64,000 nt of DNA, from assembly GCF_900100765.1 (NCBI RefSeq), contig NZ_FNFO01000001.1, forward strand, positions 558,001 to 622,000, written 5' to 3'. Below are positions 8,284 through 22,303 of this stretch, in pieces (within the stretch, counting starts at the first letter, position 1; the number at the start of each line of letters is the position of its first letter). This DNA is from Catalinimonas alkaloidigena (lineage in GTDB: Bacteria > Bacteroidota > Bacteroidia > Cytophagales > Flexibacteraceae). The notes beneath the pieces are model-generated. The model had not been told where the DNA came from. It was given only the letters and a program-made list of their open reading frames with translations, and ran no database searches. The translations under genes were made by a program, and so were the position numbers.

Positions 8284-8474
8284 GTAGCCGTGCGTGAGGA
8301 TCTACCTGTAGGTCGCAAGACAGCGACGCAGTGCGGCTTTCGGATGGAAAAACTCGGGTCAACGGTCGAATCGGAGGGAGGAGCGGTCGATGAGGAAAGA
8401 GATTATCCCGTCCGTCCGTTTTTTAAATCAAGGTTGCTCATGCAAAAGTGGTACGTGTCACCGAACGAACGTCG

Positions 8475-9058
8475 CTAATCGATACCCAGATCATAAGTAA
8501 AGCGGGAAGAGGGTTTGATCTCTTCAATATCCACGCCTGTTCGTTCGTATGTGATGCCTACAATGACCCGCTCTACTTCGTAACGACTGGCGGGATGAGG
8601 AAGGGAAATCAACTTTTCGTAGTTCAGCGCCCCTATAAAATGGATCAGGTCTGCAAGCGTATGCTGGAGTAAGGCTTTGCTTCCCTGTGGGTGATGGAAA
8701 GGGCTCCGATTTTTGAGTGACGCATCGCTGAGATCGGCTTTGGGTAAAGGAGGAAATTTCCATCCCATCCGGCGGGCCATTTCTTTCCACTGCGCTTTAC
8801 AATGTTCGTGGGGCAACAGGGAATGAAGCGATGCTTCCAAGAAAAAGCCTTCGTTGGGAACAGAGAAGTTAGTGGAAAAGTAAGCGCGTAGAAGATCTGC
8901 TGTGAAATACAGGTTGATTTGGGCTGAAGTGTGACGTAACGCATAACGACCTCTGTCGCCTTCTCTACCGTCGTGAGGGTTGCGGCTTCTTGATCGGGAA
9001 TGGCGATCTGAAAGGCTTTTTTCCAGCTAAATACGAGTTCAACGCTATCGAGGCCCAT
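8475..9058 (-). pseudogene. Acyl-carrier-like (phosphopantetheine-attachment-type) protein, broken by a frameshift
   Basis: Two minus-strand frames together give one recognisable protein of about 194 residues. The start frame (from 9058) reads MGLDSVELVFSWKKAF...IPDQEAATL, an acyl-carrier-like N-terminus with the D-S-V motif, up to QQIFY at about 8888. The second frame continues RAYFSTNFSVPNEGFFLEAS and runs to the TAG at 8475, ending in ITYERTGVDIEEI and FTYDLGID. Bacteroidota homologues that I recall have both ends in one frame. The switch lies between about 8885 and 8893 and equals loss of one base. It is either a disabled gene or a sequencing error. The neighbouring ORF ends give no acyl-ligase or synthase context. 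Confidence 0.7.
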
Positions 9059-9232
9059 CGCTTTACAAGTTTAAAATAGGAAGGTACCGCATCATGGTGG
9101 GAATTGCGCCAAATCCATGAAACTCCTTACATTTGTTTGCCGTGCCTGGCCACTGATAACAAAATCCAGGTCCGCGAGTTACCTTTCTGAACTTCCCAAA
9201 TCCTCCTGTCCACGTTAATCCGTACGTACCTT

Positions 9233-9838
9233 ATGAAATACCTGATGCTGAGTGCGCTGCTAGGTCTGTTGATGTCCTGTGCGCAAACCAAAACGCGTCC
9301 CGAAGGCGTAGAAACACCTGCCACGACCGTCTCCGAATCAAACACTGAAGCCATGCCGGGAAAAAAATCTTTCTACGACTTTACGATGACCTCGCTCGAA
9401 GGCAAGGAAATCAACTTTTCGCAGTACAAAGGCAAAAAAGTGCTGGTGGTCAACACCGCGTCCAAATGTGGCTTCACGCCGCAGTATGCCGAGTTGGAAA
9501 AGCTGAACAAGATGTACGGCAACAAGGTGGTGATCCTGGGCTTTCCGGCCAACAACTTTGGTGGACAAGAGCCCGGCAGCAACGAAGAGATCGCCGAATT
9601 CTGCGAGAAAAACTACGGGGTCGATTTCCAGATGTTCGAGAAGTCGTCGGTGAAAGGCGACGACAAAAATCCGCTTTACCAGTGGTTGACCGACAAGGCA
9701 CAAAACGGTTGGAACGACCAGGAGCCAACTTGGAATTTCTGCAAATACCTGATCGACGAACAGGGCAACCTCATCAAGTTCTTCCCGTCGAAGGTGGAGC
9801 CGATGAGCGAAGAGCTGCTCGACGCGGTGCAGAGCTAA
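9233..9838 (+). CDS. Lipoprotein glutathione-peroxidase-family thiol peroxidase
   Basis: A 201-residue protein with a lipoprotein signal peptide (lipobox LLMSC, lipidated Cys16), so it acts in the periplasm or at a membrane. The GPx fold follows with the peroxidatic Cys79 in NTASKCGFTPQY and the rest of the tetrad, Gln112 (FGGQEPGS) and Trp167 (TWNF). Cys124 in AEFCEKNYGV is the usual resolving cysteine of thioredoxin-dependent GPx-like enzymes. It probably reduces peroxides using thioredoxin-like donors and not glutathione. It is a single-gene unit followed by a strong terminator. Export of this cytosolic-type enzyme by lipidation is common in Bacteroidota. Confidence 0.93.
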   Translation: MKYLMLSALLGLLMSCAQTKTRPEGVETPATTVSESNTEAMPGKKSFYDFTMTSLEGKEINFSQYKGKKVLVVNTASKCGFTPQYAELEKLNKMYGNKVVILGFPANNFGGQEPGSNEEIAEFCEKNYGVDFQMFEKSSVKGDDKNPLYQWLTDKAQNGWNDQEPTWNFCKYLIDEQGNLIKFFPSKVEPMSEELLDAVQS

Positions 9839-9863
9839 CCGAACAACAGCCAGAGCGTACAGA

Positions 9864-9891
9864 GGCTTCGGACCATTCCGGAGCCTTTTTT
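9864..9891 (+). terminator. Rho-independent terminator after the peroxidase gene
   Basis: GGCTTCGG (9864-9871) pairs with CCGGAGCC (9878-9885), with one G-T pair, over a 6-base loop and is followed by six T. It sits 26 bases past the stop codon. Confidence 0.8.
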
Positions 9892-10240
9892 ATGGGCGAG
9901 GATCTTCCCAGATCAACGCTTCATCCGTACGCGTTTCGAAGAAATCGGCACATTGGCCGTCGCCTTTGCCGGTAAAGCCGCCGTCGGGCGCGCAAAGAGG
10001 AGTACAGTTTTCGTCGAGCAACACGCTGGGAATGTCGCAGCAGCGTTGCGGAATGAAATACACCGTCTGGCCCCGGTACGTATAACGGTATACCTTGGCC
10101 GGCGGATTCCACACGTCTTCCCGAAGGATTTCCTGGATTTTCGCCTGCACGCAGGCGGGCGTTCCGCGCTCCAGTTTCTCGGCCGCGCAGCCGCCGAAAA
10201 GGAGTAGGAACACGACAGCGTATACACAGCAACACTTCAT
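9890..10240 (-). CDS. DUF6970-type lipoprotein
   Basis: A 116-residue lipoprotein when started at the ATG at 10240, giving MKCCCVYAVVFLLLFGGC with a clean lipobox. An in-frame start at 10270 would add ten residues before the signal peptide and is less likely. The mature part contains W-N-P-P-A-K-V-Y-R-Y-T-Y-R-G, then VYFIPQRCCD, then PDGGFTGKGDGQCADF and a final LIWEDPR. This block order matches the small DUF6970 family as I recall it. Function is unknown. The paired cysteines (CCD, C-T-P-L-C) suggest disulfides in the periplasm. It converges on the peroxidase gene. Confidence 0.75.
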   Translation of the reverse strand: MKCCCVYAVVFLLLFGGCAAEKLERGTPACVQAKIQEILREDVWNPPAKVYRYTYRGQTVYFIPQRCCDIPSVLLDENCTPLCAPDGGFTGKGDGQCADFFETRTDEALIWEDPRP

Positions 10241-10685
10241 AGCAGGTACATTTTGTGAACAAAGACGCAAACGGATGCCAAAAGGCAGCGAGCGGGCTAA
10301 AAATAAAAACCGCCCCGGCAGATTAGCCAGAGCGGTCGGTTTTACAGGATCGGCGGGTAAAGAAAAGGAAGCTGTTCAGGCGACACCCGTTCTTTAGTAC
10401 CGCGCGGGTTGAAAAGGCTGGTAGAAAGAGAAACTGGTTGAAAGACAACGCAAAGATGAACGAGGCGGGCCGGTGCCGCTTGTAAAAAGCCGACGACTTG
10501 AAGAATGGGCGGATGAGTGGAGCAGTGATTGAGTGAGGGCAGGGACTGCCCAGCGGGTGAATGGCATCTGCGGTTGGGTGCGCTCCGTGCTTGTGTTGCG
10601 CAAAAGCCATCAACTCACCGCCCCACAATCCACGGACCCAACAACCCGCTAACGCACCAATCCCAATTTCAGGGTAGTTTTGTGC
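10241..10685. other. 445-base intergenic region between DUF6970 gene and menA
   Basis: No convincing gene lies here. An inverted repeat (AAAACCG at 10306-10312 with CGGTTTT at 10337-10343) could form a loose hairpin. TAGTTTTG at 10675-10682 fits the TAnnTTTG -7 box on the plus strand, only 3 bases before the menA ATG. CAAAGATG at 10449-10456 is a near match to the box on the minus strand. The long minus-strand frame that crosses this region has no protein-like features. Confidence 0.5.
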
Positions 10686-11615
10686 ATGGAACCTTCTGTT
10701 TCTCCTTCGCCGTCGTGGCGGGCCTGGCTGGAGGCGGCCCGGCCGCGTACCCTGCCGCTGGCGCTGGCGTCTATTTTGCTGGGGAGTTTCCTGGCGGCCG
10801 CCCGGGCGCAATTCAACGGTCTGATTTTCGGGCTGGCGGTACTGACGACCGTCTTTTTGCAGATTCTGTCTAACCTGGCGAACGACTGGGGGGATTCGAT
10901 CCACGGGGCCGACAGTCTTCACCGCGAAGGCCCTCAGCGGGCGGTGCAGACGGGGCATATCTCGTCGCGGGCGATGCGCAACGCGGTGATTCTCTTCTCC
11001 GTCCTTTCGTTTGCCTCGGGCATTACGCTGCTGCTGTTCGGCATCGACCTGGGCGATATCCGTGTGTTCTGGGGCTTTCTGGCGCTGGGCCTCGTGGCGA
11101 TTGCCGCTGCCATTGCCTACACGTCGGGGCCACGGCCCTATGGCTATGCCGGGCTGGGCGATATCTCCGTGCTGATTTTCTTTGGCTGGGTCGGCGTGCT
11201 GGGTACCTACTACCTGCATGCACAGCACATCGAATGGGCCGACCTGCTGCCTGCCTCGGCGTGCGGGCTGTTTGCCGCTGCGGTGCTGAACGTCAACAAC
11301 ATTCGCGACATTCATTCCGACCGGTTGGCGGGTAAGTTTTCCATTCCGGTACGGCTGGGGCCCCGGCGCGCGCGCGTGTATCATTGGGCACTGTTGGGTG
11401 GGGGAATGGTCTGCGCCGTGGTGTACGTCCTGCAGCAACCGGGCGGCCCGTGGCAGTGGCTGTTTCTGCTCTCGTTTCCGCTCCTTGTCCGCAATGGCGT
11501 GGCGGTCTGGCAACGGCAACGCGCCGCCGAACTGGACCCCCTCCTGAAACAAATGGCCCTCTCTACGTTGCTGTTCGTCGTGACCTTCGGGCTGGGACAA
11601 CTGTTGGCCGCCTGA
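10686..11615 (+). CDS. menA: 1,4-dihydroxy-2-naphthoate polyprenyltransferase
   Basis: A 309-residue UbiA-superfamily prenyltransferase with about eight to nine transmembrane helices. It attaches the polyprenyl chain to DHNA in menaquinone synthesis at the inner membrane. The two Asp-rich Mg-diphosphate motifs are visible: NLANDWGDSIHGAD near 62-75 and NNIRDIHSDRLAGK near 204-217. The ATG at 10686 was preferred to the in-frame TTG at 10680. It is monocistronic, and the TetR gene follows after 80 bases with its own promoter and operator. Menaquinone as the respiratory quinone fits Bacteroidota. Confidence 0.92.
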   Translation: MEPSVSPSPSWRAWLEAARPRTLPLALASILLGSFLAAARAQFNGLIFGLAVLTTVFLQILSNLANDWGDSIHGADSLHREGPQRAVQTGHISSRAMRNAVILFSVLSFASGITLLLFGIDLGDIRVFWGFLALGLVAIAAAIAYTSGPRPYGYAGLGDISVLIFFGWVGVLGTYYLHAQHIEWADLLPASACGLFAAAVLNVNNIRDIHSDRLAGKFSIPVRLGPRRARVYHWALLGGGMVCAVVYVLQQPGGPWQWLFLLSFPLLVRNGVAVWQRQRAAELDPLLKQMALSTLLFVVTFGLGQLLAA

Positions 11616-11646
11616 CACAAAAAATTTTCTCAGTGGTATTGCCTGA

Positions 11647-11678
11647 TTTGCATGAATAGACCGATCGGTCTATTTTGC
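11647..11678 (+). promoter_or_regulatory. Promoter of the TetR gene
   Basis: TTTG at 11647-11650 and TATTTTGC at 11671-11678 form a Bacteroidota-type -33/-7 pair (TAnnTTTG) with a 20-base spacer. The operator palindrome fills the spacer and overlaps the -7 box, so bound repressor would block the polymerase. Confidence 0.65.
11655..11674. promoter_or_regulatory. TetR-type operator 1 (perfect 20-base palindrome)
   Basis: AATAGACCGATCGGTCTATT is a perfect palindrome placed 21 bases before the TetR start codon. The same 14-base core (AGACCGATCGGTCT) recurs at 12314-12327 in front of the thioesterase gene. This predicts autoregulation by the adjacent TetR protein. Confidence 0.8.
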
Positions 11679-11695
11679 GGTAAGTCGCAATCGCC

Positions 11696-12295
11696 ATGTC
11701 TACCAAATCGGAACGGACCCGCCAGTTCATCATTGAAAAAGCTGCTCCTTTGTTCAACACGAAGGGCTATTACGGCACGTCGATGGGCGACATTCTGGCG
11801 GCGACCGGCCTGGCCAAGGGGGGCGTCTACGGTAATTTCGCCAGCAAAGAAGACATTGCGCTGGAAGCGTTCGAGTTTGCGTTTCAGACCGTGATCGAGG
11901 CCTTGAACGTCCGTATTCGCGCGGAACACCACGCCCTCGACAAGTTGAAGGCCATCCTCGATTATTACAGTGCCTATCACGACACGCCTTCGGTGCAGGG
12001 CGGTTGCCCATTGCTAAATACCGGTTGTGATAGCGACGACAGCGATTTGCCCCGCCTGCGGGCACGGGTCAAACAAGCCACACAACAGATGCTTCGCGCG
12101 TTGGTACACATCATCGAGAAAGGGAAAGAGTACGGGCAGGTTCGGTCGGAAGTCGATGCCGAGGTGATGGCCGACCTGGTGTTCAGTCAGATCGAAGGTG
12201 GGCTGGTGCTGGCCAAACTGACGGGCGACGGCGTGCGCCTCCAACGGGTGCTATCGTACACTTACCAGATGTTGCTGCGCGAATTGCCGCACTAA
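11696..12295 (+). CDS. TetR/AcrR-family transcriptional regulator
   Basis: A 199-residue regulator. The N-terminal helix-turn-helix (about residues 8-55) shows TRQFIIEKAAPLFNTKGYYG followed by the recognition segment TGLAKGGVYGNFASKEDIA. The C-terminal ligand-binding domain (about 75-195) includes a cysteine-containing GGCPLLNTGCDSDD segment, as in TetR_C_6/YcdC-like regulators. Identical palindromes lie upstream of this gene and of the next gene (thioesterase, 62 bases after the stop), so it probably represses both. The inducing ligand is unknown; an acyl-CoA or fatty-acid-like molecule would fit the thioesterase. Confidence 0.9.
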   Translation: MSTKSERTRQFIIEKAAPLFNTKGYYGTSMGDILAATGLAKGGVYGNFASKEDIALEAFEFAFQTVIEALNVRIRAEHHALDKLKAILDYYSAYHDTPSVQGGCPLLNTGCDSDDSDLPRLRARVKQATQQMLRALVHIIEKGKEYGQVRSEVDAEVMADLVFSQIEGGLVLAKLTGDGVRLQRVLSYTYQMLLRELPH

Positions 12296-12313
12296 ATTTT
12301 TTTGCCTATTTAC

Positions 12314-12327
12314 AGACCGATCGGTCT
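12314..12327. promoter_or_regulatory. TetR-type operator 2
   Basis: AGACCGATCGGTCT repeats the core of operator 1 exactly and lies 30 bases before the thioesterase ATG. It is a perfect 14-base palindrome. It links the thioesterase gene to the upstream TetR regulator. Confidence 0.8.
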
Positions 12328-12357
12328 TTTATATGACACCTTAACCGCTTTATAACC

Positions 12358-12840
12358 ATGATCCTCGAACCCAAAACACCAGTATCCATCCGCTTTCAGG
12401 ACTGCGATCCCTTCGGGCACTTGAACAACGCCCGCTATCTCGACTACTTCATCAACGTACGCGAAGATCACCTCAAGCAGCACTACCAGATCAGCCTGCT
12501 GGAGTTTATGCAGCAGGGCGTGGGGTGGGTAATTCACCAGCACGAACTGCTTTACCTGAAACCGGCGAACGTGTACGAAAATGTGCAGGTGCGCTCGTCG
12601 CTGATCGACTTCAACGACCACTCACTCTGGGTCGAAGGCTCCATGTGGGACGAAGAAGAAAAGCACCTGAAGGCGTTGCTCTGGACCCGCTACATTCACG
12701 TCAACCTCAAAACTGGCCAGAAAGAACACCACCTGCCCGAAATGCTGGAGCGATTTGCGAAGATGCGCAACGAAACCATCGGTCGTGACGCGGGCATTAA
12801 GGGACGTCTGGCGCAACTGGTGCCCCGCATTCCGGCCTGA
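12358..12840 (+). CDS. Acyl-CoA thioesterase (4HBT hotdog family)
   Basis: A 160-residue single hotdog-fold protein. The 4HBT signature with the catalytic aspartate is visible at about residues 14-31 (FQDCDPFGHLNNARYLDYF). Later beta strands include VGWVIHQHELLYLKPANVYE and the L-W-T-R-Y-I-H-V strand. It should hydrolyse acyl-CoA thioesters; chain-length preference cannot be read from sequence. It is preceded by TetR operator 2 and follows the TetR gene, so its expression is probably induced when the repressor binds its ligand. Confidence 0.87.
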   Translation: MILEPKTPVSIRFQDCDPFGHLNNARYLDYFINVREDHLKQHYQISLLEFMQQGVGWVIHQHELLYLKPANVYENVQVRSSLIDFNDHSLWVEGSMWDEEEKHLKALLWTRYIHVNLKTGQKEHHLPEMLERFAKMRNETIGRDAGIKGRLAQLVPRIPA

Positions 12841-12969
12841 TCAGGATGATGAATAGGGGAGCGGTTCAAGAAACTTGGGCTGTGTGTCGTTAGCGCAAGC
12901 CAAATGGGAATAAACGTTGACCCTAAGGCTGGGCGAATGTAATACGTCGTGCTTTTCGGGAGATCGTGT

Positions 12970-13044
12970 AAGATGGCGACAAACACCGTCGACAGCGTTA
13001 GCTTAGAGCATAGCATAAGCCGTTAGCGTACTGACGCCCATCTT
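12970..13044. repeat. Imperfect inverted repeat (left side of island)
   Basis: AAGATGGCG at 12970-12978 pairs with CGCCCATCTT at 13035-13044, leaving one bulged base. Inside it, GCTTA and TAAGC around 13001-13020 can pair again. No T-run follows, so it is not a simple terminator. Confidence 0.5.
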
Positions 13045-13525
13045 GCTACAGGGGGCGCCTCACCGGGACTGGTTCTACCCTCTTTAGCACAAACTCACCT
13101 AAAATCTCTCCGGTAATTTGCCGTTGAGCTACTGCCCGCGCGCTGTTTATCAACGAAGAAGCAAGCTATACTCTGAAATAATTTGAGTCAACCTCTAGCG
13201 TAAAAGTCGCATAATAAATTAAGAAAATTTTTATAGCTGGTAACGCGAACAATACCATTGTTTTTTAGGCAGACTAAACGGGCTGAAGGGTAGCCCTACG
13301 GGTGCATAGTTCTGGCGGGGATTAGGGAGTGCGCGCGAGCTTAACGAGGTGAATAACAGCAACTAATGAACCCATCTCGAAAGTTGGAAGCTCTAAGGAA
13401 GCCTCGATTTCGACGATTTCTGATGAAGTTTTGTTGACACTGCAAGAACATTACATCTGAATCCACAGTTTTTGCGGGCATATAGTGCTTAGAATGCTAT
13501 TGTGGCCATTGAGGGGAGTTAGTAA

Positions 13526-13569
13526 GCCTGATAAATAGCCGGAAATATTTCATGGCTTGAATATCAGGC
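13526..13569. repeat. Inverted repeat upstream of the STAS/SEC14-like gene
   Basis: GCCTGATA (13526-13533) is the exact reverse complement of TATCAGGC (13562-13569), and an inner GCC/GGC pair lies between them. It ends 70 bases before the ATG at 13640, so it may be an operator or leader structure. Confidence 0.4.
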
Positions 13570-13639
13570 CTTTCGCACTTTTCAAGGTACCGACGTTTTG
13601 TACCTTCGTTTCGCAATTCTCCAAAAAAACTAAAATTTT

Positions 13640-14047
13640 ATGATTGCCGTTAACAAAGCCATTTATGCCGATCCATTTGCTGAGATCACTTACGATGATG
13701 CAAACAAAGTCTTGGTTGCCAAATGGATGGGGTTTCTAAAGATTGATAGCACTCAAAAGGGCTGCATCTCAATGGTTGACTTTGTCAAGAGAAACAAAGT
13801 TACGAAGCATTTGAGTGACCAAAGCACCCTTAAGGTTCTCTCCAAAGACGTACAAACTTATTTGGTAACAGAAGCTTTCCCGGCTTTAGACAGAGCAGGT
13901 TTAAGAAAACTGGCGGTACTGGTGTCAGAAGACATCTTTGCAAAAGCCTCTGTAGAGAATGTGAACACCAACGCGACCAAAATGGGAAACATCTCTATCA
14001 GAACATTTGGCACACGTAAAGAATGTATTGCTTGGCTGAACGAGTAG
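13640..14047 (+). CDS. STAS/SEC14-like domain protein
   Basis: A 135-residue soluble protein that resembles the small Bacteroidota proteins annotated as STAS/SEC14-domain. It has an N-terminal strand pair with VLVAKWMGFL, a helix, a KHLSDQSTLKVLS segment (the usual wL-D block), then AFPALDRAGLRKLAVLVSEDIFAKAS, and a C-terminal RTFGTRKECIAWLNE helix. No membrane segment or signal is seen. Base composition is AT-richer than most of the window, as for the next two genes. The role is unknown. It is separated from the methyltransferase by a 203-base structured spacer, so an operon is uncertain. Confidence 0.6.
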   Translation: MIAVNKAIYADPFAEITYDDANKVLVAKWMGFLKIDSTQKGCISMVDFVKRNKVTKHLSDQSTLKVLSKDVQTYLVTEAFPALDRAGLRKLAVLVSEDIFAKASVENVNTNATKMGNISIRTFGTRKECIAWLNE

Positions 14048-14061
14048 CGGGTTGCATAGTG

Positions 14062-14157
14062 GGGGTAGCATCGTAAGTGAGCTTTGCCTGTATCGCTTGA
14101 GCGTAGCCTAGTTAGCTGGTTAACAGGTTCTTTCAAGCGCTTCGATGCTGCTACCCC
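14062..14157. repeat. Long nested inverted repeat between the STAS-like and methyltransferase genes
   Basis: Nested complementary arms can be read: GGGGTAGCA-TCG (14062-14073) with CGATGCTGCTACCCC (to about 14156), CGCTTGA (14094-14100) with TCAAGCG (14133-14139), and CCTAGTTA with TAACAGG in the centre. A further short hairpin GCCATC/GATGGC follows at about 14163-14177. There is no T-run. The structure starts 15 bases after the stop codon of the preceding gene. Confidence 0.6.
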
Positions 14158-14250
14158 TGTGGCCATCCCACGATGGCTACCCTCTCGCACCGACCTCTCC
14201 AGTTTTACCATTTTACATTCGTGCTACTTCAGAAATAACTATTCTCTATC

Positions 14251-15294
14251 ATGTCGGCTACTCCCTCTGCCCAACTAAATCCTTTTCCAATTATCCAGGT
14301 AGGCTTGAGTTTCTGGTCTTCCAAGACTTTGCTGGCTGCCACTAAGCTAGGCTTGTTTACGCACCTGAGTGAAAAGCCTCTTACAGCGGAGCAGATCAAA
14401 CAGAAGCTTGGTCTGAATCAAAAGGGGCTTTACGTACGTGACTTTTTAGATGCGCTTTACTCCATGGGATTCTTAGAAAGAACCGGGAGCGGCGAAAGCG
14501 TTTTGTACCAAAATACACCGGATACGGCAGCGTTTCTGGATAAAAATCAGCCTGCCTATCTGGGTGGATTTTTGGAAATGGCGAACGACCGTGAGTACAA
14601 GTTCTGGGGCGATCTGGAAGAAGGATTAAAAACGGGCAATCCTCAGAACGAAATTAAGTATACCGGTAAAGAGTCTTTTGAGGCGATTTACGATAATCCG
14701 ATCTCACTGGCACAATTTACAGAGGCCATGTCTGGTATACAGAAGCTGAGTTTTATGGCATTTGCCAACAGCTTTGACTTTTCAGGCTATAAAACCCTGG
14801 TAGACGCCGGTGGTTCTGCGGGGCTTCTTTCAGCGTTGGTAGCTCAACAGCATCCGCACATGCACTGCACTACTTTTGACCTGCCTCAATTAGAGCCCTT
14901 TGCAAAAGCAACCGCTGAAACCTATGGCGTAGCCGACAGGGTAACGGTATTGAACGGAGATTTTTTCAATGAACCCTTTCCAACCGCCGATGTGGTCACG
15001 ATGGGCAACATTTTACACAGCTTTGATCTGGAAAAGAAGAAAATGTTGCTTCAAAAAGCCTATGAGGCACTTCCTGCCAACGGTTGCCTGGTCATCATAG
15101 AAATGATCTTGGATAACGAACGCAGAGAAAATACCTTCGGGCTGCTGATGTCACTCAACATGCTGATCGAGTCTGATGGTGGGTTTAACTATACTCAAAA
15201 TGAGTTTCGGCAGTGGGTTTCGGAAGCCGGCTTTACCTCAGTAAAGTTTATTCCTTTAGGCGGACCTGTGAGCGCTGCGGTAGCTTACAAATAA
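14251..15294 (+). CDS. SAM-dependent O-methyltransferase (plant-type, Methyltransf_2)
   Basis: A 347-residue class-I methyltransferase of the caffeate/acetylserotonin O-methyltransferase type. Residues 10-100 form the winged-helix dimerisation domain (FWSSKTLLAATKLGLFTHL, TAEQIKQKLGL). The SAM-binding motif I is LVDAGGSAGLL at 183-193, followed by FDLPQLEP (acidic loop) at about 209-216. His256 in GNILHSFD occupies the place of the catalytic base. Such enzymes methylate hydroxyl or amino groups of small aromatic or polyketide metabolites. It precedes the PrnB/IDO-like gene by 137 bases on the same strand, which suggests one pathway. The AT-rich composition suggests acquisition. Confidence 0.88.
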   Translation: MSATPSAQLNPFPIIQVGLSFWSSKTLLAATKLGLFTHLSEKPLTAEQIKQKLGLNQKGLYVRDFLDALYSMGFLERTGSGESVLYQNTPDTAAFLDKNQPAYLGGFLEMANDREYKFWGDLEEGLKTGNPQNEIKYTGKESFEAIYDNPISLAQFTEAMSGIQKLSFMAFANSFDFSGYKTLVDAGGSAGLLSALVAQQHPHMHCTTFDLPQLEPFAKATAETYGVADRVTVLNGDFFNEPFPTADVVTMGNILHSFDLEKKKMLLQKAYEALPANGCLVIIEMILDNERRENTFGLLMSLNMLIESDGGFNYTQNEFRQWVSEAGFTSVKFIPLGGPVSAAVAYK

Positions 15295-15351
15295 CGACTC
15301 GTCTCTTGAGTAGACGCCTCGTGCTAATACATGCTTTGGTATTCGTGAGTT

Positions 15352-15381
15352 ACATTAATTAGGCTGTTGTCTAATTAATGT
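15352..15381. promoter_or_regulatory. Perfect inverted repeat upstream of the PrnB-like gene (possible operator)
   Basis: ACATTAATTAG (15352-15362) and CTAATTAATGT (15371-15381) are perfect 11-base complements around an 8-base loop, 50 bases before the ATG at 15432. No T-run follows, so an operator is more likely than a terminator. A near-consensus -7 box (TACCCTTG, one mismatch) lies just downstream at 15385-15392. Confidence 0.5.
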
Positions 15382-15431
15382 TAAATACCCTTGTCAAATT
15401 CTGAACGCCAATCCCTGAATTTTATTTTTTT

Positions 15432-16547
15432 ATGAGAATCTCTACACGTGGTCTTCACGAAATTCCTTCGCTGGAAAAACAAAAAAGTGAAGATCTCTAT
15501 ATTGGTAGCTTAGATCCGTTGCAGTCAGACGATCGCCTTACACGTGTGCCAGCTTTCAACAAAGAAAGGGACGTCATGGCACTGGTGATGACCCTGCAGG
15601 ACATGCTACCCGCTGTACAGGAAGTGACCACGTTTGATTATCCTCAAGCGTGTGCGGCCATGCGAGACATCGGCATTTTGCTGGGCTCGATAAAACGTCA
15701 TGGTGTAGAACCTGTGCATGTTGTCCCGTCACTCGAAGACAGGCTGAACCTATTGGGTGAGGTGACCAACCTTCCGCCTCGCGATACCTTGATCCATTAC
15801 GTGCGCTGGAATCCTGAAGGATCACGGCTACGGACGTACACAGGTACGGAAGATGAGCACCAGCTCATAAAAAGTGTTCAGGTAGCTTTTCATCCTTTGT
15901 ATGAAGCTATTTTGTCGTTACACGACCTCTATCATGTATCATTGGACTCTTCGGAGTTCAGCACTCTGTGCGATCAAGTGATTTCTCAGTTTGAGGGCAT
16001 GGTACATGGCGTAGTTAACGCGAAGCGGAACGTAAGCCCGCAGTATTTTGCAGAAGAATTACGATTTTATTTTGATCCCATTCAACTGAACGGTCGCGAA
16101 TACCTCGGGCCCGGCGCAGTAGAAATGCCGGTTTTTCTATTCGATCACATTCTTTGGAGTTGTGATGTGGAGGATGAAACGTATACGGCCTTCAAAAAGG
16201 CTTACGTGCCTTACAATCAGGCAATGGTACGAGATCTGTACGCGGCCTACGAACAGCGCCCAAGCCTGGTTAGCAAAGCAGTGCAGGAGTTGAGCAACGG
16301 GGATGATTTCTGTGAGACCCGTTTGGAGAGTGCAAAGTCTTTGGTGAGGCTGTTCAACCTGTTGAAAAGTTTTCGCGCACCTCATAAAAAGCTTGCCGAT
16401 AAAGCCTACGAGCATGCAGCCAAAGACAATTACCGTGAGAAAGGAAGTGGCGGATACGAACCAGGCGTGCTGCACTACATTCTTCAGCTTAACCTGAATG
16501 CTTTGCAAAATCTCAAAGCGCGTATTCAGGTCTACGAAAGAAAATAA
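15432..16547 (+). CDS. PrnB/indoleamine-dioxygenase-like haem protein
   Basis: A 371-residue soluble protein that resembles the PrnB (DUF1864) branch of the haem dioxygenase superfamily, which includes tryptophan and indoleamine dioxygenases. Supporting blocks are RFYFDPIQLNGREYLGPGA (211-229) and MPVFLFDHILW (232-242), then FRAPH at 314-318 followed by GSGGYEPG at 338-345. The last two match the IDO/TDO layout of a proximal haem histidine (here His318) and a glycine-rich active-site loop (GTGGS in IDO/TDO). PrnB rearranges 7-chlorotryptophan in pyrrolnitrin synthesis, but no halogenase or other prn gene is present. A tryptophan- or indole-derived substrate is inferred. It lies in the AT-rich island and ends at a bidirectional terminator. 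Confidence 0.6.
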   Translation: MRISTRGLHEIPSLEKQKSEDLYIGSLDPLQSDDRLTRVPAFNKERDVMALVMTLQDMLPAVQEVTTFDYPQACAAMRDIGILLGSIKRHGVEPVHVVPSLEDRLNLLGEVTNLPPRDTLIHYVRWNPEGSRLRTYTGTEDEHQLIKSVQVAFHPLYEAILSLHDLYHVSLDSSEFSTLCDQVISQFEGMVHGVVNAKRNVSPQYFAEELRFYFDPIQLNGREYLGPGAVEMPVFLFDHILWSCDVEDETYTAFKKAYVPYNQAMVRDLYAAYEQRPSLVSKAVQELSNGDDFCETRLESAKSLVRLFNLLKSFRAPHKKLADKAYEHAAKDNYREKGSGGYEPGVLHYILQLNLNALQNLKARIQVYERK

Positions 16548-16582
16548 AGACGGGCAGTACCTACATCAAGAGCATACCAACC

Positions 16583-16613
16583 AAAAAGGGGAACGTAATC
16601 GTATCCCCTTTTT
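16583..16613. terminator. Bidirectional terminator between convergent genes
   Basis: AAAAAGGGGA (16583-16592) and TCCCCTTTTT (16604-16613) are perfect complements with an 11-base loop. The A and T runs serve both the PrnB-like gene and the opposing membrane-protein gene. Confidence 0.8.
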
Positions 16614-16639
16614 CTTTGATAAGGAATGGGTTGTGTTAG

Positions 16640-17896
16640 TTACTGTTTGTAAAACGGAATCTGTGCCAGGGTGTAGGGACGTTGCCGCGCAAGGGAAATG
16701 GTCAGCAGATGCGGTCCCGACGCCAGTTGCCGTACGTCGAGCCACGTCAGTACCCCCTTCTGGTCGGTAATGGGGTGCGTCTGGAAAAACCAGCGTACGG
16801 ACGTGTGCAGCGAATCGTCGATCGTGATGCGGTAGTAGTCGCGCAGGCAGGCCAGCGTCAGGGAATCCGCTTGCGGGGCGGAAGCGTCGTCCGGAAGGTG
16901 ACAGTACGTTTGCAGCGAATCTTCGTACGTCGCGTGTTGCACGACAAACAGACGGATGGGCTCGTTGCGGATGATGTCGGACTGAATGTGCGCCCGTTGG
17001 GAGAACTCTTGCGCCAGGTCGGCATAGTACCCGGCGTAGGCCGTCGTCCCGCTCCGGTCGTAGTAATAGTCGAGCCCGCTCATCCACGTGCGTGAATACA
17101 CCGAAAAAAATTGTAAAACGATCATGGCGATGGACAGACAGGCGTACACCCCAATGGCCGTGACGATTTTCCAGCGGCGAATGTTGGTGATCAGGACGTA
17201 GTAAATGTCGCGGTAGAACGAGGCGAGGGTAAACCAGTTGAAAAATCGGTAGATCGGATAATAGACCGGCGCGAGCCAGCGGAGCCTTTTGATTGCCCCG
17301 AGGCTCAGAAAGTCGAACAGGTACACCAAGCCCATCACCGACAGCGTATATGCGTACAGCCGCACGAACCACGGAAGCTGGAAATTCCCCGTGAAATAAA
17401 TGTAGAGGCCGATCAGCAAGGTGCCCAGCGTCAGAAAGAACAGCAGCAGGCCGAGCATGCACATAAAGAAGAGAAAGGCAATCGCAAAAATGACGCTACA
17501 GTATTTTTCGAGGACCAGAATGCGATCAGAAGGGGACACGAGTCCTTCGACCGTGCGTTGAAAGCGAGCCTGGTACCGCAGCCGTTCGGGACGGATACCC
17601 TTCGGAAACGTGTAACTCAGGCCCACCAGCCCGATCCAGATCCCACGCAGCAGCAGGTGCAACACAAAGCCCGTGATCAGCCAGTAGACCGCCGAATTGA
17701 TCAGGAACATGGCCGTGTCGATGTCGCCGATCTCGAAGAATTCCCGCTTGAACCAGAGCCGTCCGCGTTCTGTGGCGGCAGGTACCTGAAATAAAGAAAA
17801 CAGAATCAGGCTGGACAAGAGGATTTCGGCCTGCCAGCTTTCGTTCTGCAATTTTTCCAGCCACTCGGGCCGGGACGGCGGGGACGTGTTGGGCAT
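16640..17896 (-). CDS. Integral membrane protein of unknown function
   Basis: A 418-residue protein from the ATG at 17896; an in-frame GTG at 17902 overlaps the previous stop. About six to seven hydrophobic segments are visible between residues 30 and 290, among them [18 protein letters not shown], a [12 protein letters not shown] stretch and [18 protein letters not shown] hydrophilic C-terminal domain of about 130 residues follows and is probably periplasmic. I do not recognise a family. It is downstream of and tightly linked to the hydrolase-OsmC gene, suggesting co-transcription. Confidence 0.65.
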
Positions 17897-17901
17897 AAGC
17901 A

Positions 17902-19113
17902 CTACGTTTTCAGCAAAGTATTGACTTCGACGCCTTCGAGGAGGGTTTTGTGTACGGGGCAGCGGTTGGCGATCTCCAGCAGGCGGTTGCGTTGCGCGTC
18001 GGTCAGCTCACCTTTCAGTTCCAGTTGCCGGTCGATGCGGTCGACCTTGCAGGGCGCATCTTCCACCTTGTTGCAGTCTTCGGCGTGAGCTTTGTCGTGT
18101 TGCAAGTGCACTACCACGGCTTGCAGCGGCCAGCCTTTGCGGTCGGCGTACATGCGCAGCGTCATGCCCGTGCAGGCCCCCAGCGCGGCGGTCAGCAAAT
18201 GGTAGGGCGTGGGGCCGAAGTCGTGTCCGCCGATGTCCTGTGGCTCGTCCGCTATAAAATGGTGACGTCCGGCTTTGACAAAACTGGTAAAGCTTCCCGG
18301 CTCGGTGCGCACGGCCACCTCTTTGTCCGAATCGACCTGCGCCGGGGGCGGTACCGGTACGTAGCGCGTCGACCAGGTGGCAATGAGGTCACCGGCATAA
18401 CAGGCATCGGCTTCGTTGGACAACAGGTGGTCGGCTCCGTCGAGCGATACGTAGCTTTTTGGGTGGCGGGCGTACTGGTAGAGTTTGGCGGCGTTTTCGA
18501 CCGATACGATCCGGTCCTGTGGCGAGTGCAGAATCAGCAATGCGCGTTGGAGTTGATGCACCACCTGCTCACTCTTGTTGGCCTCCAGGTCGTCCAGAAA
18601 TTCCTTGCTGATCACGAACGATTCCCCACCAATGGCCACTTCGGCCTTGCCTTCGGCTTCGATCTGGGCCCGCTCGCTTTTGACCAGCCGACTGACGTGG
18701 ACCGGCTCGGCGGGCGTTCCGATGGTGACGACGGCTTTTACGCTGTCCAGCTCCCGGGCGGCAAACAGCACGGCCGCTCCGCCCAGCGAGTGCCCGATCA
18801 GGAGCGACGGCGGCTGGTGATTTTTGGCCAGCCAGCGGGCAGCACAGACCAGATCGTCCACGTTCGACGAGAAATTGGTATCAGCAAACTCCCCTTCGCT
18901 TTCGCCCAGTCCCGTAAAATCGAACCGCAACACGGCGATTCCTTTGCCCGTCAGCGACCGGCTGATGTGGCGGACCGAATGGTAATTCTTGTTGCAGGTA
19001 AAACAGTGCGCAAACAGCGCGTAGGCGTACGGATGCTTGTCGACAGGCAACTCCAGCCGGGCCGATAACTGGTGTCCGTCAGGATTCGGAAATTTGATGC
19101 GGAGGGTTCTCAT
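17902..19113 (-). CDS. Alpha/beta hydrolase-OsmC fusion protein
   Basis: A 403-residue two-domain protein. Residues 1-250 are an alpha/beta hydrolase with the nucleophile elbow GHSLGG (Ser109). Residues 265-403 are an OsmC/Ohr-type domain with the redox cysteine pair Cys314 (GACTGM) and Cys385 (NRCPVHK). OsmC proteins reduce organic hydroperoxides, and the hydrolase may act on esterified substrates, so the fusion could couple ester hydrolysis with peroxide reduction. This fusion is a known architecture in bacteria. It is cytoplasmic, with no signal peptide. The stop codon nearly touches the start of the following membrane-protein gene. Confidence 0.88.
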
Positions 19114-19296
19114 AAGGGAAAGTAGGGGCGATGCTGTTGACTATCAGCGCGCGAGTGATTAGGTTACAGCCCTGCGGGCAACACACTTGATACGGTAAAA
19201 TAAGCAAGCAGCGGGAAGGAAGCGCGATTTTACGGAGGAAATGTCGCACGCCGACCGTGCGGAAGTTGCCTGTCTTTCAAATCAACCTAACCACTT

Positions 19297-20376
19297 ATGA
19301 AAATCGGAATTCTGGCCCCCATTGCCTGGCGTACTCCCCCCGAACACTACGGCGGCTGGGAGTTGGTCGCCCACCACCTGACCGAAGGGCTGGTCGCGCG
19401 TGGCCACGACGTCACGCTGTTTGCCACCTCGGACAGCCTTACCAAAGCCCGTCTGGAATCGGTCTGCCCGCATCCACTTAATCAGCCGGGCCACGCCCTC
19501 GACAGTCGGGTGTACGAAACGCTGCACATCGCCCATGCGTTCGAGCGGGCCAAAAAGCTGAAACTCGACGTGTTGCATAACCACGCGGGCTGCTTCGGGA
19601 CGCCGTTCGCGCACCTGATTTCCGTACCCACCGTCACCACCCTCCACGGCTCGGCCGCAGAGGCGGGCAGCCGCACCCTCTACGAGCACTACCGCGACCT
19701 GAACTACGTCTCCATCTCCGATTCAGAACGAAAACTGGCTCCTGACCTCAGTTACGTAGCCACGGTCTACAACGGGGTCAAGGTTGCCTCTTTTGAGTTT
19801 CAGGAGTCTCCTGGCGACTACCTGATCGTGATCGGGCGCATGTCGCCGGACAAGGGCATTCACCTGGCGATCCAGGTCGCCCAACAGGCCGGTCTGCCGC
19901 TGGTGCTGGCGGGCATCGTCCCGTCGGAAAACGAGTCGTATTTCCGCACGCAGATCGAGCCGCATCTGAACGACCAGATTCGCTTCATCGGGCCGGTGAA
20001 CCACCGTGAAAAAAGTCGCTGGCTGGCCGGGGCCAAAGCTTCGCTGCACCTCGTCACCTACGAAGAAGCTTTCGGCCTGACGATGGCCGAGTCGATGGCC
20101 TGCGGCACGCCCGTCGTCGCCATCCGTCGCGGCAGCGTCCCTGAGCTCATCGAACACCGGCGTACGGGCTTCATCGTCAACCCTGCCTCCGACGACGAAA
20201 TGGTGGCTGATGCCGTAGCATTTCTGTCGCACGTCGCCGACCTGGACCGTCGTTACATCCGCGAACACACCGAAAAACGCTTCGGTGTTGAGCGCATGGT
20301 AAAGGGCTACGAAGCGGTCTACAAACAGCTCCTCGCGCCCCGGCAAACGTTCCCGCTCCGCGCCGAACCCACCTGA
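19297..20376 (+). CDS. Family 4 glycosyltransferase
   Basis: A 359-residue GT-B retaining glycosyltransferase. The N-terminal glycine-rich acceptor loop reads PPEHYGGWELVAHHLTEGL (14-32) and is followed by ARGHDVTLFATSDS. The C-terminal donor domain starts near 170 (YLIVIGRMSPDKGIHLAI) and carries the E-x7-E motif in EEAFGLTMAESMACGTPVVA. It transfers a nucleotide-sugar residue to an unknown acceptor such as a lipid or polysaccharide. It is not in a polysaccharide cluster; it is divergent from the hydrolase-OsmC gene and convergent with an outer-membrane protein gene. Confidence 0.87.
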   Translation: MKIGILAPIAWRTPPEHYGGWELVAHHLTEGLVARGHDVTLFATSDSLTKARLESVCPHPLNQPGHALDSRVYETLHIAHAFERAKKLKLDVLHNHAGCFGTPFAHLISVPTVTTLHGSAAEAGSRTLYEHYRDLNYVSISDSERKLAPDLSYVATVYNGVKVASFEFQESPGDYLIVIGRMSPDKGIHLAIQVAQQAGLPLVLAGIVPSENESYFRTQIEPHLNDQIRFIGPVNHREKSRWLAGAKASLHLVTYEEAFGLTMAESMACGTPVVAIRRGSVPELIEHRRTGFIVNPASDDEMVADAVAFLSHVADLDRRYIREHTEKRFGVERMVKGYEAVYKQLLAPRQTFPLRAEPT

Positions 20377-20431
20377 GTGAGCGTGTTTCGGGCAATTGGC
20401 TAAGTGGGAAGCACACCAGCGGTTACGCTCC

Positions 20432-21487
20432 TTACAAACGGAAGAATAGGCCCGTCTGGAGGTCGTGCGAAAACATCTTTTCGGGGAAAAGGGGCATCTT
20501 AGCAGAAGACGTAAAGTCGATGTCGTAGTTGACGGACCAATATACCCTGCTGCTGAGTTGCGCCTGAAGGCCGCCCATCACTGCAACCGTCTGGTAAAAA
20601 GGCGAATAGAAGTTCACACCGGCCGCAGCTTTGGGTCGAATGCGCGATTTCGGGTAGATGTACTCCAGCTGGAAGGGAATTTTATAGTAGGACAGCGTAC
20701 TGCTTTCGCGTTGCAGACGGGCGTGCAAAAGCCCGGTGCGGAAGTATAGTTTCTCGTTAGAGCGTGGCATCCAAACGTGTAACAATACACCCAGTTCCAG
20801 GTAGTTTTTGTCCTGGATGCGCACGACGGGTCGCTGGTAATGCACCAGCCCGACCACCACTTCCGGATTGGCTTTGAGGAACGGCACCCGCTTTTCATAA
20901 ACCAAGCACTGTTCGCCGTTGCAGACCGTGGCATGATAGCGCTTGGCCAGCTTGATCAGACTGGCATGGTCGGGCTTCTGGATGGCCTCAACGTTGGCTT
21001 GCAGCGAAGGTGCGTCCTGTGTGTAAAGCTTCAGAAGGTTGATGTGCCAGGACGAGTGGGTATAGTAATTTTTTCCATCGCGTTGTATGATCGCCTCTTG
21101 GTAGCGCATTTCGGTTAGTACCGTATCCTTGCCCAAGAAGTAACGGTCATGGTCAGACTGGTCGCGCATGTAGTACACGCTCAGTTCGCCGTTCACTAAG
21201 TACTCCAGAAACTTGTTTTTCCCTTCGACCACTTTGGTGATGTAGTATTTACCGTCTGTGAACCGATAGGCCCGAATGTCGTCCGGTGCATACACTTTTT
21301 CGGCCGCGCCTTCGGAAGTCCGAAACCGACAGACCGTGCTCATGAGGGCATCGCCCCGGTAATCGATCTCTCCGGAAAGGGTGTCCCCGGTATAACTGAG
21401 CACGTACCCAGGCCTGAAGTCGACTTGTGCCTGCAAGGCAGTGGTGGCAAAAAATGTCCCAATGGCGACCAGCGTTTTCCAGCGCAT
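20432..21487 (-). CDS. Secreted protein with predicted C-terminal outer-membrane barrel
   Basis: A 351-residue precursor with a signal peptide cleaved near TALQAQ (residue 21). The mature N-terminal half begins PGYVLSYTGDTLSGEIDYRG, a layout seen in many Bacteroidota envelope proteins of unknown function. The last 150 residues alternate hydrophobic and polar residues with aromatic strand ends (LYFRTGLLHARL, VYWSVNYDIDF) and finish in GLFFRL, consistent with a small beta-barrel. No enzymatic motif is visible. It is an isolated gene. Confidence 0.65.
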   Translation of the reverse strand: MRWKTLVAIGTFFATTALQAQVDFRPGYVLSYTGDTLSGEIDYRGDALMSTVCRFRTSEGAAEKVYAPDDIRAYRFTDGKYYITKVVEGKNKFLEYLVNGELSVYYMRDQSDHDRYFLGKDTVLTEMRYQEAIIQRDGKNYYTHSSWHINLLKLYTQDAPSLQANVEAIQKPDHASLIKLAKRYHATVCNGEQCLVYEKRVPFLKANPEVVVGLVHYQRPVVRIQDKNYLELGVLLHVWMPRSNEKLYFRTGLLHARLQRESSTLSYYKIPFQLEYIYPKSRIRPKAAAGVNFYSPFYQTVAVMGGLQAQLSSRVYWSVNYDIDFTSSAKMPLFPEKMFSHDLQTGLFFRL

Positions 21488-21649
21488 TGCTATACGTTGT
21501 TTGGTTAACAGGTTAAAAAGCGCAATTGCTCGTGAAGATAGGAGGTAGGCCTGGCACGAAAGGTACGATCCCGATGCTTTGCAAGCCGGTGTATTAAATT
21601 GTAGAGGAAGCGCTGGTCGCGCTAAACCGACAGCGTGGTAGACCTTCTG

Positions 21650-22303
21650 CTACACCGGCCACTGTTCCAGGCGGTAGGCGCTGTCCCAGAAGAGCCACTC
21701 CAGCCGGGACGAGTAGAGAAACGCCTCCTGCATCTGGTGTCGGGTTTCGGGAGAGGCCACCTGCGCTACGGCATCCGTGAGCTGAATTGCCTCGTCGACG
21801 ATCGCGCTGAATTCCTCCCCGGCGTAGGTATCGATCCACGCCTGGTACGGATTGTCGGGCTGGTGCTGTTGCCAGATGAAGTTGCCTACCTCACGGTAAA
21901 TCCAGAAACAGGGCAGCAGCGCGGCGACGCCCACCGCAAACGACTGTTGCCAGCACGTGGCCGTCAGGTAATTGGTGTAGGCAAAACAGGCCGGCGATTT
22001 AACGACCCCTTCCTCCGAAATGCCGAAGGTCTGGAAGTAACTTCCGTGCAGCGCCTTTTCGACCACAATGGCCCCTTCGGCGAAACGCAAATAGCGATGC
22101 ACCCACGCGGTCGGTTCGGCTTTGGCGGCCATCACGGCCAGCGCACGGGCAAAGTCGGCGAGGTAGAGCGCATCCTGTTGGATGTAGTGCTGGAATTTTT
22201 CCTGCGGCAGCGTGCCCTGGGTCAGTTCCGCGATGAACGGGTGGGCGGTGATGCTGTGGTAAAGCGGCGTGATGGCGTGCCAGAGTTGCGGCGTGAACGA
22301 CAT
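21650..22303 (-). CDS. tenA: TenA-family thiaminase II / aminopyrimidine aminohydrolase
   Basis: A 217-residue all-helical TenA protein. The catalytic cysteine is Cys132 in AALLPCFWIY, and the C-terminal acidic residue is in SSRLEWLFWDSAY. TenA hydrolyses amino-HMP from degraded thiamine to HMP, which ThiD can phosphorylate. It is the last gene of a salvage operon thiM-thiE-thiD-tenA controlled by a TPP riboswitch and follows thiD by 36 bases. The chemistry thus fits its neighbours. Confidence 0.92.
   Translation of the reverse strand: MSFTPQLWHAITPLYHSITAHPFIAELTQGTLPQEKFQHYIQQDALYLADFARALAVMAAKAEPTAWVHRYLRFAEGAIVVEKALHGSYFQTFGISEEGVVKSPACFAYTNYLTATCWQQSFAVGVAALLPCFWIYREVGNFIWQQHQPDNPYQAWIDTYAGEEFSAIVDEAIQLTDAVAQVASPETRHQMQEAFLYSSRLEWLFWDSAYRLEQWPV

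Follow-up and report, generated by a model that had tools for sequence, protein, structure and literature searches.

A SpoIIAA-like gene is paired with prnB in Bacteroidota and may encode the partner subunit of a PrnB-type haem enzyme

Which protein works with a PrnB homologue at a locus where the other genes of pyrrolnitrin biosynthesis are not found alongside? The question arises from a stretch of 64,000 nucleotides (nt), here called the window, of the 7.1 Mb genome of Catalinimonas alkaloidigena (contig positions 558,001-622,000), in which the listing of open reading frames (ORFs) gives a forward-strand cassette of three genes at 13640-16547, encoding proteins of 135, 347 and 371 amino acids (aa). 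An initial annotation had described this span as a two-gene pathway joining an O-methyltransferase (OMT) to a PrnB-like haem protein; its coordinates for both ORFs were correct, but a third ORF at 13640-14047, enclosed in the same span, was overlooked. It is this small gene, and not the OMT gene, that forms the conserved pair with prnB, since 24 of the 26 intact homologues from Bacteroidota have it adjoining prnB, whereas the OMT gene is linked in only five of those 24.

The 26 homologues, the window's own included, were collected from genome samples and one genome-contig scan and counted after removal of duplicates judged to be the same records (L012 and L008, L073 and L015, L079 and L014). 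The small gene lies directly upstream of prnB in 20 of the 24 pairs, with gaps of 1-80 nt (6-36 nt in 17 of the 20) whose lengths rest on start codons assigned by rule. The OMT gene stands between the two in three others, and in the last, from Reichenbachiella versicolor (L021), both are fused into a single open frame of 509 aa that is followed by a second, free copy of the small gene. Four further matches are left out of this count, namely a split prnB (G690), a 224-aa partial gene (G577), a weak 70-residue match with stops (G697) and a remote match of 28 bits (G164); with them the figure becomes 24 of 30, and no partner was found for G690, G577 or G164. One of the two intact exceptions, L048, falls outside the clade of paired homologues and has no partner gene in the 8.3 kb covered. 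At proteobacterial and myxobacterial prn loci, a tblastn search of the flanks (1e-3) found the small gene at none of 22. Clustering of the neighbouring ORFs at 20 loci (18 of the 24 together with L013 and L048) returned nothing present in at least three loci beyond the partner, prnB, the OMT gene and histidine kinases.

Co-occurrence across the order follows the same pattern. Among 390 genomes, prnB matches were found in 15 and high-scoring partner matches in 13, with both in 12, the partner only in one and a prnB match only in three, these being partial, split and a weak fragment. Partner matches are those of at least 134.9 bits; the highest score below them was 85.8. The resulting Fisher p of 2.7e-19 is indicative only, because no more than 10 candidates were scored per genome, the profile drew in part on genomes of the sample, some genera are represented more than once, and the two draws of 390 are taken to hold identical genomes from their matching size and identifiers. 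A tree of 56 SpoIIAA-like sequences places every one of the 26 prnB-linked rows (those of the 24 pairs, and an additional copy each from L017 and L021) on a single branch (98/97) together with six closely related orphans; the 24 generic paralogues fall elsewhere. Distances among the partners correlate with those among the PrnB proteins (Mantel p 0.0001; r 0.74 for 24 genomes, 0.50 for 19 after thinning and 0.61 for 18 without the fusion), a correlation that could also be expected from joint inheritance alone. These results show that the small gene and prnB are a conserved pair in this phylum, with a dedicated branch of small proteins.

The 135-aa product of the small gene (13640-14047, forward strand) matches nothing in Pfam, PF11964 included, or in NCBIfam at E ≤1, and PF11964 matches six of 19 members of its family at the same threshold, the best at 0.0043. 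An AlphaFold2 model built on 29 sequences (pLDDT 90.0, pTM 0.83) finds its best Foldseek match in 2q3l, of the DUF3478 SpoIIAA-like fold (E 8.5e-5), and VIA places RsbS (Z 13.3) and 2q3l (Z 12.7) as tied, the top match covering 112 residues at an rmsd of 2.2. The modelled structure is thus that of a SpoIIAA-like/STAS α/β fold. Several residues set the subfamily apart: His57 (codon at 13808-13810) is present in 23 of the 26 prnB-linked rows and in none of the 24 generic paralogues, and Leu67 and Val108 are each present in all 26 and again in none of the 24. In the model, the subfamily-specific L67, Y74, A103, V108 and N109 are placed in or beside strand 3/helix 2 and in helix 3. Ser68, which lies close to where helix 2 begins, presumably occupies a place like that of the SpoIIAA phospho-acceptor (an equivalence judged by eye); it is kept in most linked members and replaced by Ala, Leu or Asn in some.

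Further copies and remnants of the pair were seen at individual loci. SpoIIAA-like copies or domains stand both before and after prnB at L017:9501-11767 and L021:9515-11536, as though two partner units acted together, and in G690 (L077:7462-8624) prnB runs in two frames and no partner was found, which looks like decay of the pair. Three Sporocytophaga-type genomes carry a second, prnB-free SpoIIAA-like copy (L130:5275-6974, L131:4871-6577 and L134:4584-6284) that follows a Crp-type/cNMP-binding regulator and a flavodoxin-fold reductase (Flavodoxin_2/FMN_red, Pfam search of L130). This setting could hint at a redox role of the partner.

The 371-aa protein (15432-16547, forward strand) had been assigned to the PrnB superfamily, and this placement is borne out by a match to Pfam PrnB PF08933 at E 3.9e-48 (164.6 bits against a cut-off of 27) and by PDB matches to PrnB of Pseudomonas fluorescens (PfPrnB, 2v7i, 6.3e-80, 41% identity) and of a 'Flavobacteriales bacterium' (FbPrnB, 9dfg, 1.2e-50), so that it belongs with the histidine-ligated haem aromatic oxygenases. 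For the indoleamine and tryptophan dioxygenases proper (IDO and TDO), the sequence searches gave nothing: phmmer against the PDB at E ≤1 returned just the two PrnB sequences, and no IDO or TDO Pfam match appeared at E ≤1. Evidence on the fold comes from the model of the fused relative L021, to whose PrnB domain the window protein is about 45% identical; this model has a predicted PrnB-type fold (2x67, E 1.9e-21, TMt 0.92), and IDO1 and IDO2 were also matched.

The residues named in the initial annotation likewise hold up in the alignments. His318 (codon at 16383-16385), the presumed proximal haem ligand, aligns by hand count with PfPrnB chain residue 313, and His313 of PfPrnB is the residue that we take to be its proximal ligand. 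The GSGGY loop at residues 338-342 (16443-16457) aligns with GSGGY in PfPrnB and GSAGY in FbPrnB, and H318, G338, S339, G341 and Y342 are invariant across 38 aligned rows. Ser339 of this loop aligns, after a hand-derived shift of the 9dfg numbering, with Ser319 of FbPrnB, which holds the substrate carboxylate (PMC11791213), and the loop presumably has the same part here. A further pocket position, Tyr123, corresponds to Tyr104 of FbPrnB and Val117 of PfPrnB, a change described as altering the seating of tryptophan (PMC11791213); the residue is Tyr in all 24 partner-linked homologues as well as in L013, L048 and FbPrnB, and Val in all 11 proteobacterial and myxobacterial rows of the tree. That tree took in 11 of the 22 loci of this group, and, apart from L048 and FbPrnB, its Bacteroidota rows, 25 in number, group together at 100/97; rows with long branches, and hence less certain, are the L021 fused domain, L048, FbPrnB, L135, L136 and L074.

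Outside this clade, PrnB homologues were seen on two Streptomyces plasmids, beside a flavin-dependent oxidoreductase and a ketosynthase-like gene (L135:8947-13102) and beside a GNAT acetyltransferase (L136:8965-10958); the adjoining annotation names neither a halogenase nor a Rieske gene on either plasmid. The prnB of Pseudomonas protegens FD6 is broken into several frames in its record (L049:1167-2682). Carriage by phage was considered and rejected, no PrnB relative being confirmed among viral contigs.

The middle gene (14251-15294, forward strand) encodes a 347-aa COMT-type S-adenosylmethionine methyltransferase with matches to PF00891 (3.8e-41) and PF08100 (Methyltransf_2 and Dimerisation domains). 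It had been called a plant-type class-I enzyme with His256 as probable catalytic base; His256 (codon at 15016-15018) is indeed at the catalytic place, but the protein is nearer to RedM (4.8e-87 against the PDB) and human hydroxyindole O-methyltransferase (4.7e-35) than to the plant enzymes listed. His256, the presumed base, aligns with a His of PigF and of the human enzyme, and RedM has Ser253 there. In RedM, an N,N-dimethyltransferase, a change of this Ser to His abolishes activity (PMC10784701), and because His256 sits where RedM does not tolerate His, we infer that O-methylation is favoured, which would place an oxygen on the product.

This gene is best seen as an accessory member of the cassette. 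Besides the window it is linked in G751 (L071), G482 (L074), L007 and L008, so that its adjacency to prnB does occur in other genomes. The order small gene-OMT-prnB is shared by the window, G751 (with gaps of 93 nt and 12 nt around the OMT gene) and G482, and thus recurs in two other families; in L007 and L008, from Xanthocytophaga-type genomes, the OMT gene is divergent. Because the five linked proteins form one clade (100/99, recovered in 200 of 200 bootstrap trees), with 12 unlinked homologues from the same order outside it, the linkage is probably no coincidence, having arisen once and then been kept or lost. A role of the cassette in defence was considered and rejected, the sole PADLOC match being to mad2 (2e-8) through the methyltransferase part of this protein, with none for the other two proteins.

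The cassette had been described as richer in A+T than its flanks, and its composition agrees. Its G+C content is 0.462 as against 0.560 for the whole window, and an equally low value occurs in 21 of 1222 same-sized stretches, all of which overlap it. The three genes have G+C contents of 0.42 (small gene), 0.47 (OMT) and 0.48 (prnB), and third-position values of 0.47-0.50 compared with 0.72-0.77 in six neighbouring genes. Given these low values relative to its neighbours, the cassette is probably of foreign origin. Consistent with this, the closest relative found is in G751, from another family of the same order (PrnB about 70%, OMT 78% and small protein 67-69% identical), and not in G396, the one other genome of the same family with a PrnB match, at only about 48%.

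Upstream of the cassette, an AT-rich leader at 12841-13639 (G+C 0.434 in 13001-14000) is presumed to be regulatory; the sole ORF of at least 100 aa that overlaps it is on the minus strand and ends at 13016. Structured spacers between the genes had also been proposed, and this applies to the OMT-prnB spacer (15295-15431), which folds with a minimum free energy of -31.5 (z -3.23, one of 200 shuffles as stable) and contains an AT-rich hairpin at 15350-15382 on the forward strand, while the first spacer, between the small gene and the OMT gene, is only marginal (z -1.85, six of 200 as stable). An Rfam scan of 12800-16700 gave no family at its gathering score, and a tRNA search of 8000-22000 found none. 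Further downstream, on the minus strand at 17902-19113, lies a gene for a 403-aa protein in which an α/β hydrolase is joined to an OsmC domain.

If the cassette is not for pyrrolnitrin, what might it make or do? The initial annotation had noted that no pyrrolnitrin gene lies nearby, and this extends to the whole sample, since homologues of prnA, prnC or prnD were found near none of the 24 Bacteroidota loci, as against all 22 prn loci in the same search. The queries came from a Pseudomonas locus that was checked for Pfam content; the relatedness of prnA and prnC means that the same gene may be hit by both. In the cassette's own genome, the only match to the tryptophan halogenase family scores 21.3 bits against a cut-off of 21 and covers 86 of 458 positions, and this profile also matches in E. 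coli. With no such homologue found nearby and only this weak halogenase-family match in the genome, the pyrrolnitrin pathway was rejected. An incomplete or diverged form of it, in which PrnB would give a ring-rearranged aminophenylpyrrole from tryptophan and the methyltransferase would N-methylate this product as RedM does, is improbable to us on the same grounds: it draws on the 41% identity to PfPrnB, on the acceptance of unchlorinated tryptophan by PrnB (PMC11791213) and on the nearest solved OMT relative being RedM, but the Tyr at position 123 where the prn proteins have Val, and the His in the OMT that RedM does not tolerate, also speak against it.

The reading that we prefer, and to which we give an even chance, is of a PrnB-type haem enzyme built from two subunits, followed in some strains by a tailoring step and leading to a non-halogenated tryptophan or indole product. 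The 371-aa protein would be the catalyst, binding tryptophan or a close derivative over a His318-ligated haem, with the amine and carboxylate of the substrate held as in PrnB. The 135-aa SpoIIAA-like protein would bind to it as a dedicated partner, as suggested by their occurrence as one chain in R. versicolor, and would most probably either switch the haem enzyme to its active state or carry or gate a hydrophobic indole compound, be it substrate or product. In the window strain and four others, the OMT would then add a methyl group to the product, the likeliest site being an oxygen introduced by the haem enzyme. Purified PrnB has been reported as inactive, with a missing partner protein among the reasons suggested (PMC11791213), and a STAS protein, MlaB, is known to bind the enzyme MlaF and to stabilise it (PMC7367683).

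Several observations count against this proposal. Dyadobacter MSC1_007 (L013) is an intact member of the clade with no partner alongside, and none was found elsewhere in its genome in a search run without a positive control; the six orphan copies in the tree mean that the small protein may have work to do where PrnB is lacking. In proteobacteria, PrnB forms its product in vivo (PMC11791213), and with no such small gene found at any of the 22 prn loci the PrnB fold does not always need this partner. The model of the L021 fusion has a pTM of 0.70, and the arrangement of its domains is not readable from it. That catalysis by an oxygenase of the PrnB/IDO superfamily actually depends on a dedicated SpoIIAA-like subunit is put forward tentatively, as a possibility with rather less than an even chance.

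Two other roles for the small protein would keep the pair and change its meaning. It may be a carrier of a hydrophobic ligand, such as haem or an indole intermediate or product, and not an activator, the haem enzyme being active alone; the related structures 2q3l and 2ook have been proposed as CRAL-TRIO-like carriers of non-polar molecules with helices 2 and 3 as the lid (PMC2954212), and the position of the subfamily-specific residues, at strand 3/helix 2 and in helix 3, also counts for it, but the fusion and the clade-wide pairing fit a stable subunit too, and we consider this alternative unlikely. We also doubt, rather strongly, that the PrnB homologue is a haem sensor of O2, NO or tryptophan whose signal the SpoIIAA-like protein relays by partner switching. 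This idea has in its favour the STAS fold, RsbS being one of the best matches in VIA, the haem-STAS precedent of RsbR and its STAS partner in the Vibrio brasiliensis stressosome (PMC4976288), and the lack of any OMT gene found in the neighbourhoods of 19 of the 24 genomes; a sensor, however, accounts poorly for the retention of His318 together with all the substrate-loop residues, for the loss of Ser68 in some linked members and for a methyltransferase clade tied to the cassette. Histidine kinases might be added in favour of a sensor; the sole other family common to at least three of the 20 neighbourhoods, they occur within about 10 kb of prnB in seven and next to it in two, the Sporocytophaga metagenome-assembled genomes at L014:11107-12066 and L015:11117-12376, where the kinase gene directly follows prnB in convergent orientation. 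Such genes are numerous in these genomes and are not consistently adjacent to prnB, and we take them as background, leaving the likelihood of a sensor unchanged.

Should catalysis depend on the small protein, a PrnB-type enzyme might for the first time turn over when purified, in the form of this pair. The clade would also be, to our knowledge, the first in the PrnB/IDO superfamily with an obligate small protein subunit. The inactivity of purified PrnB, for which a missing partner is among the proposed reasons, is why the partner would matter, and at least in this clade that idea becomes directly testable with two small proteins. The same result would assign a role to a branch of SpoIIAA-like proteins, a family so far uncharacterised, and would point to non-halogenated tryptophan or indole metabolites in the Cytophagales and their relatives. 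A search of the open-licence literature found no paper joining PrnB with Bacteroidetes, nor pyrrolnitrin with a STAS domain.

Among characterised systems, the nearest to the catalyst is PfPrnB of pyrrolnitrin biosynthesis, which shares its family, proximal His and GSGGY loop, and its fold by way of the fused relative's model, while the cassette differs in that no prnA, prnC or prnD was found nearby, in the SpoIIAA-like gene and in Tyr123 in place of Val117. FbPrnB has the same PrnB fold and the same Tyr in the pocket, but is only 30-31% identical and falls with L048 outside the partner-linked clade. The paenidepsin cluster of Paenibacillus offers, in PdnC, a PrnB homologue outside pyrrolnitrin with a proposed role in indole hydroxylation (PMC13036774); PdnC belongs to a non-ribosomal peptide cluster and is likened here by description, not by sequence. 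The OMT is of the same COMT-type family as human hydroxyindole O-methyltransferase (4a6d) and RedM (8tji), the latter acting on a tryptophan-derived bisindole (PMC10784701) and lacking the His of the window protein. For the small protein, the SpoIIAA-like DUF3478/PF11964 proteins 2q3l and 2ook have the same predicted fold (Z 12.7 and 10.4) at 12-14% identity, whereas the 135-aa protein has no Pfam match and is tied to PrnB. RsbR of V. brasiliensis is likewise a haem protein that works with STAS domains (PMC4976288), but it is a stressosome sensor acting with the kinase RsbT and not of the PrnB fold, so that the likeness is one of arrangement, with no homology claimed.

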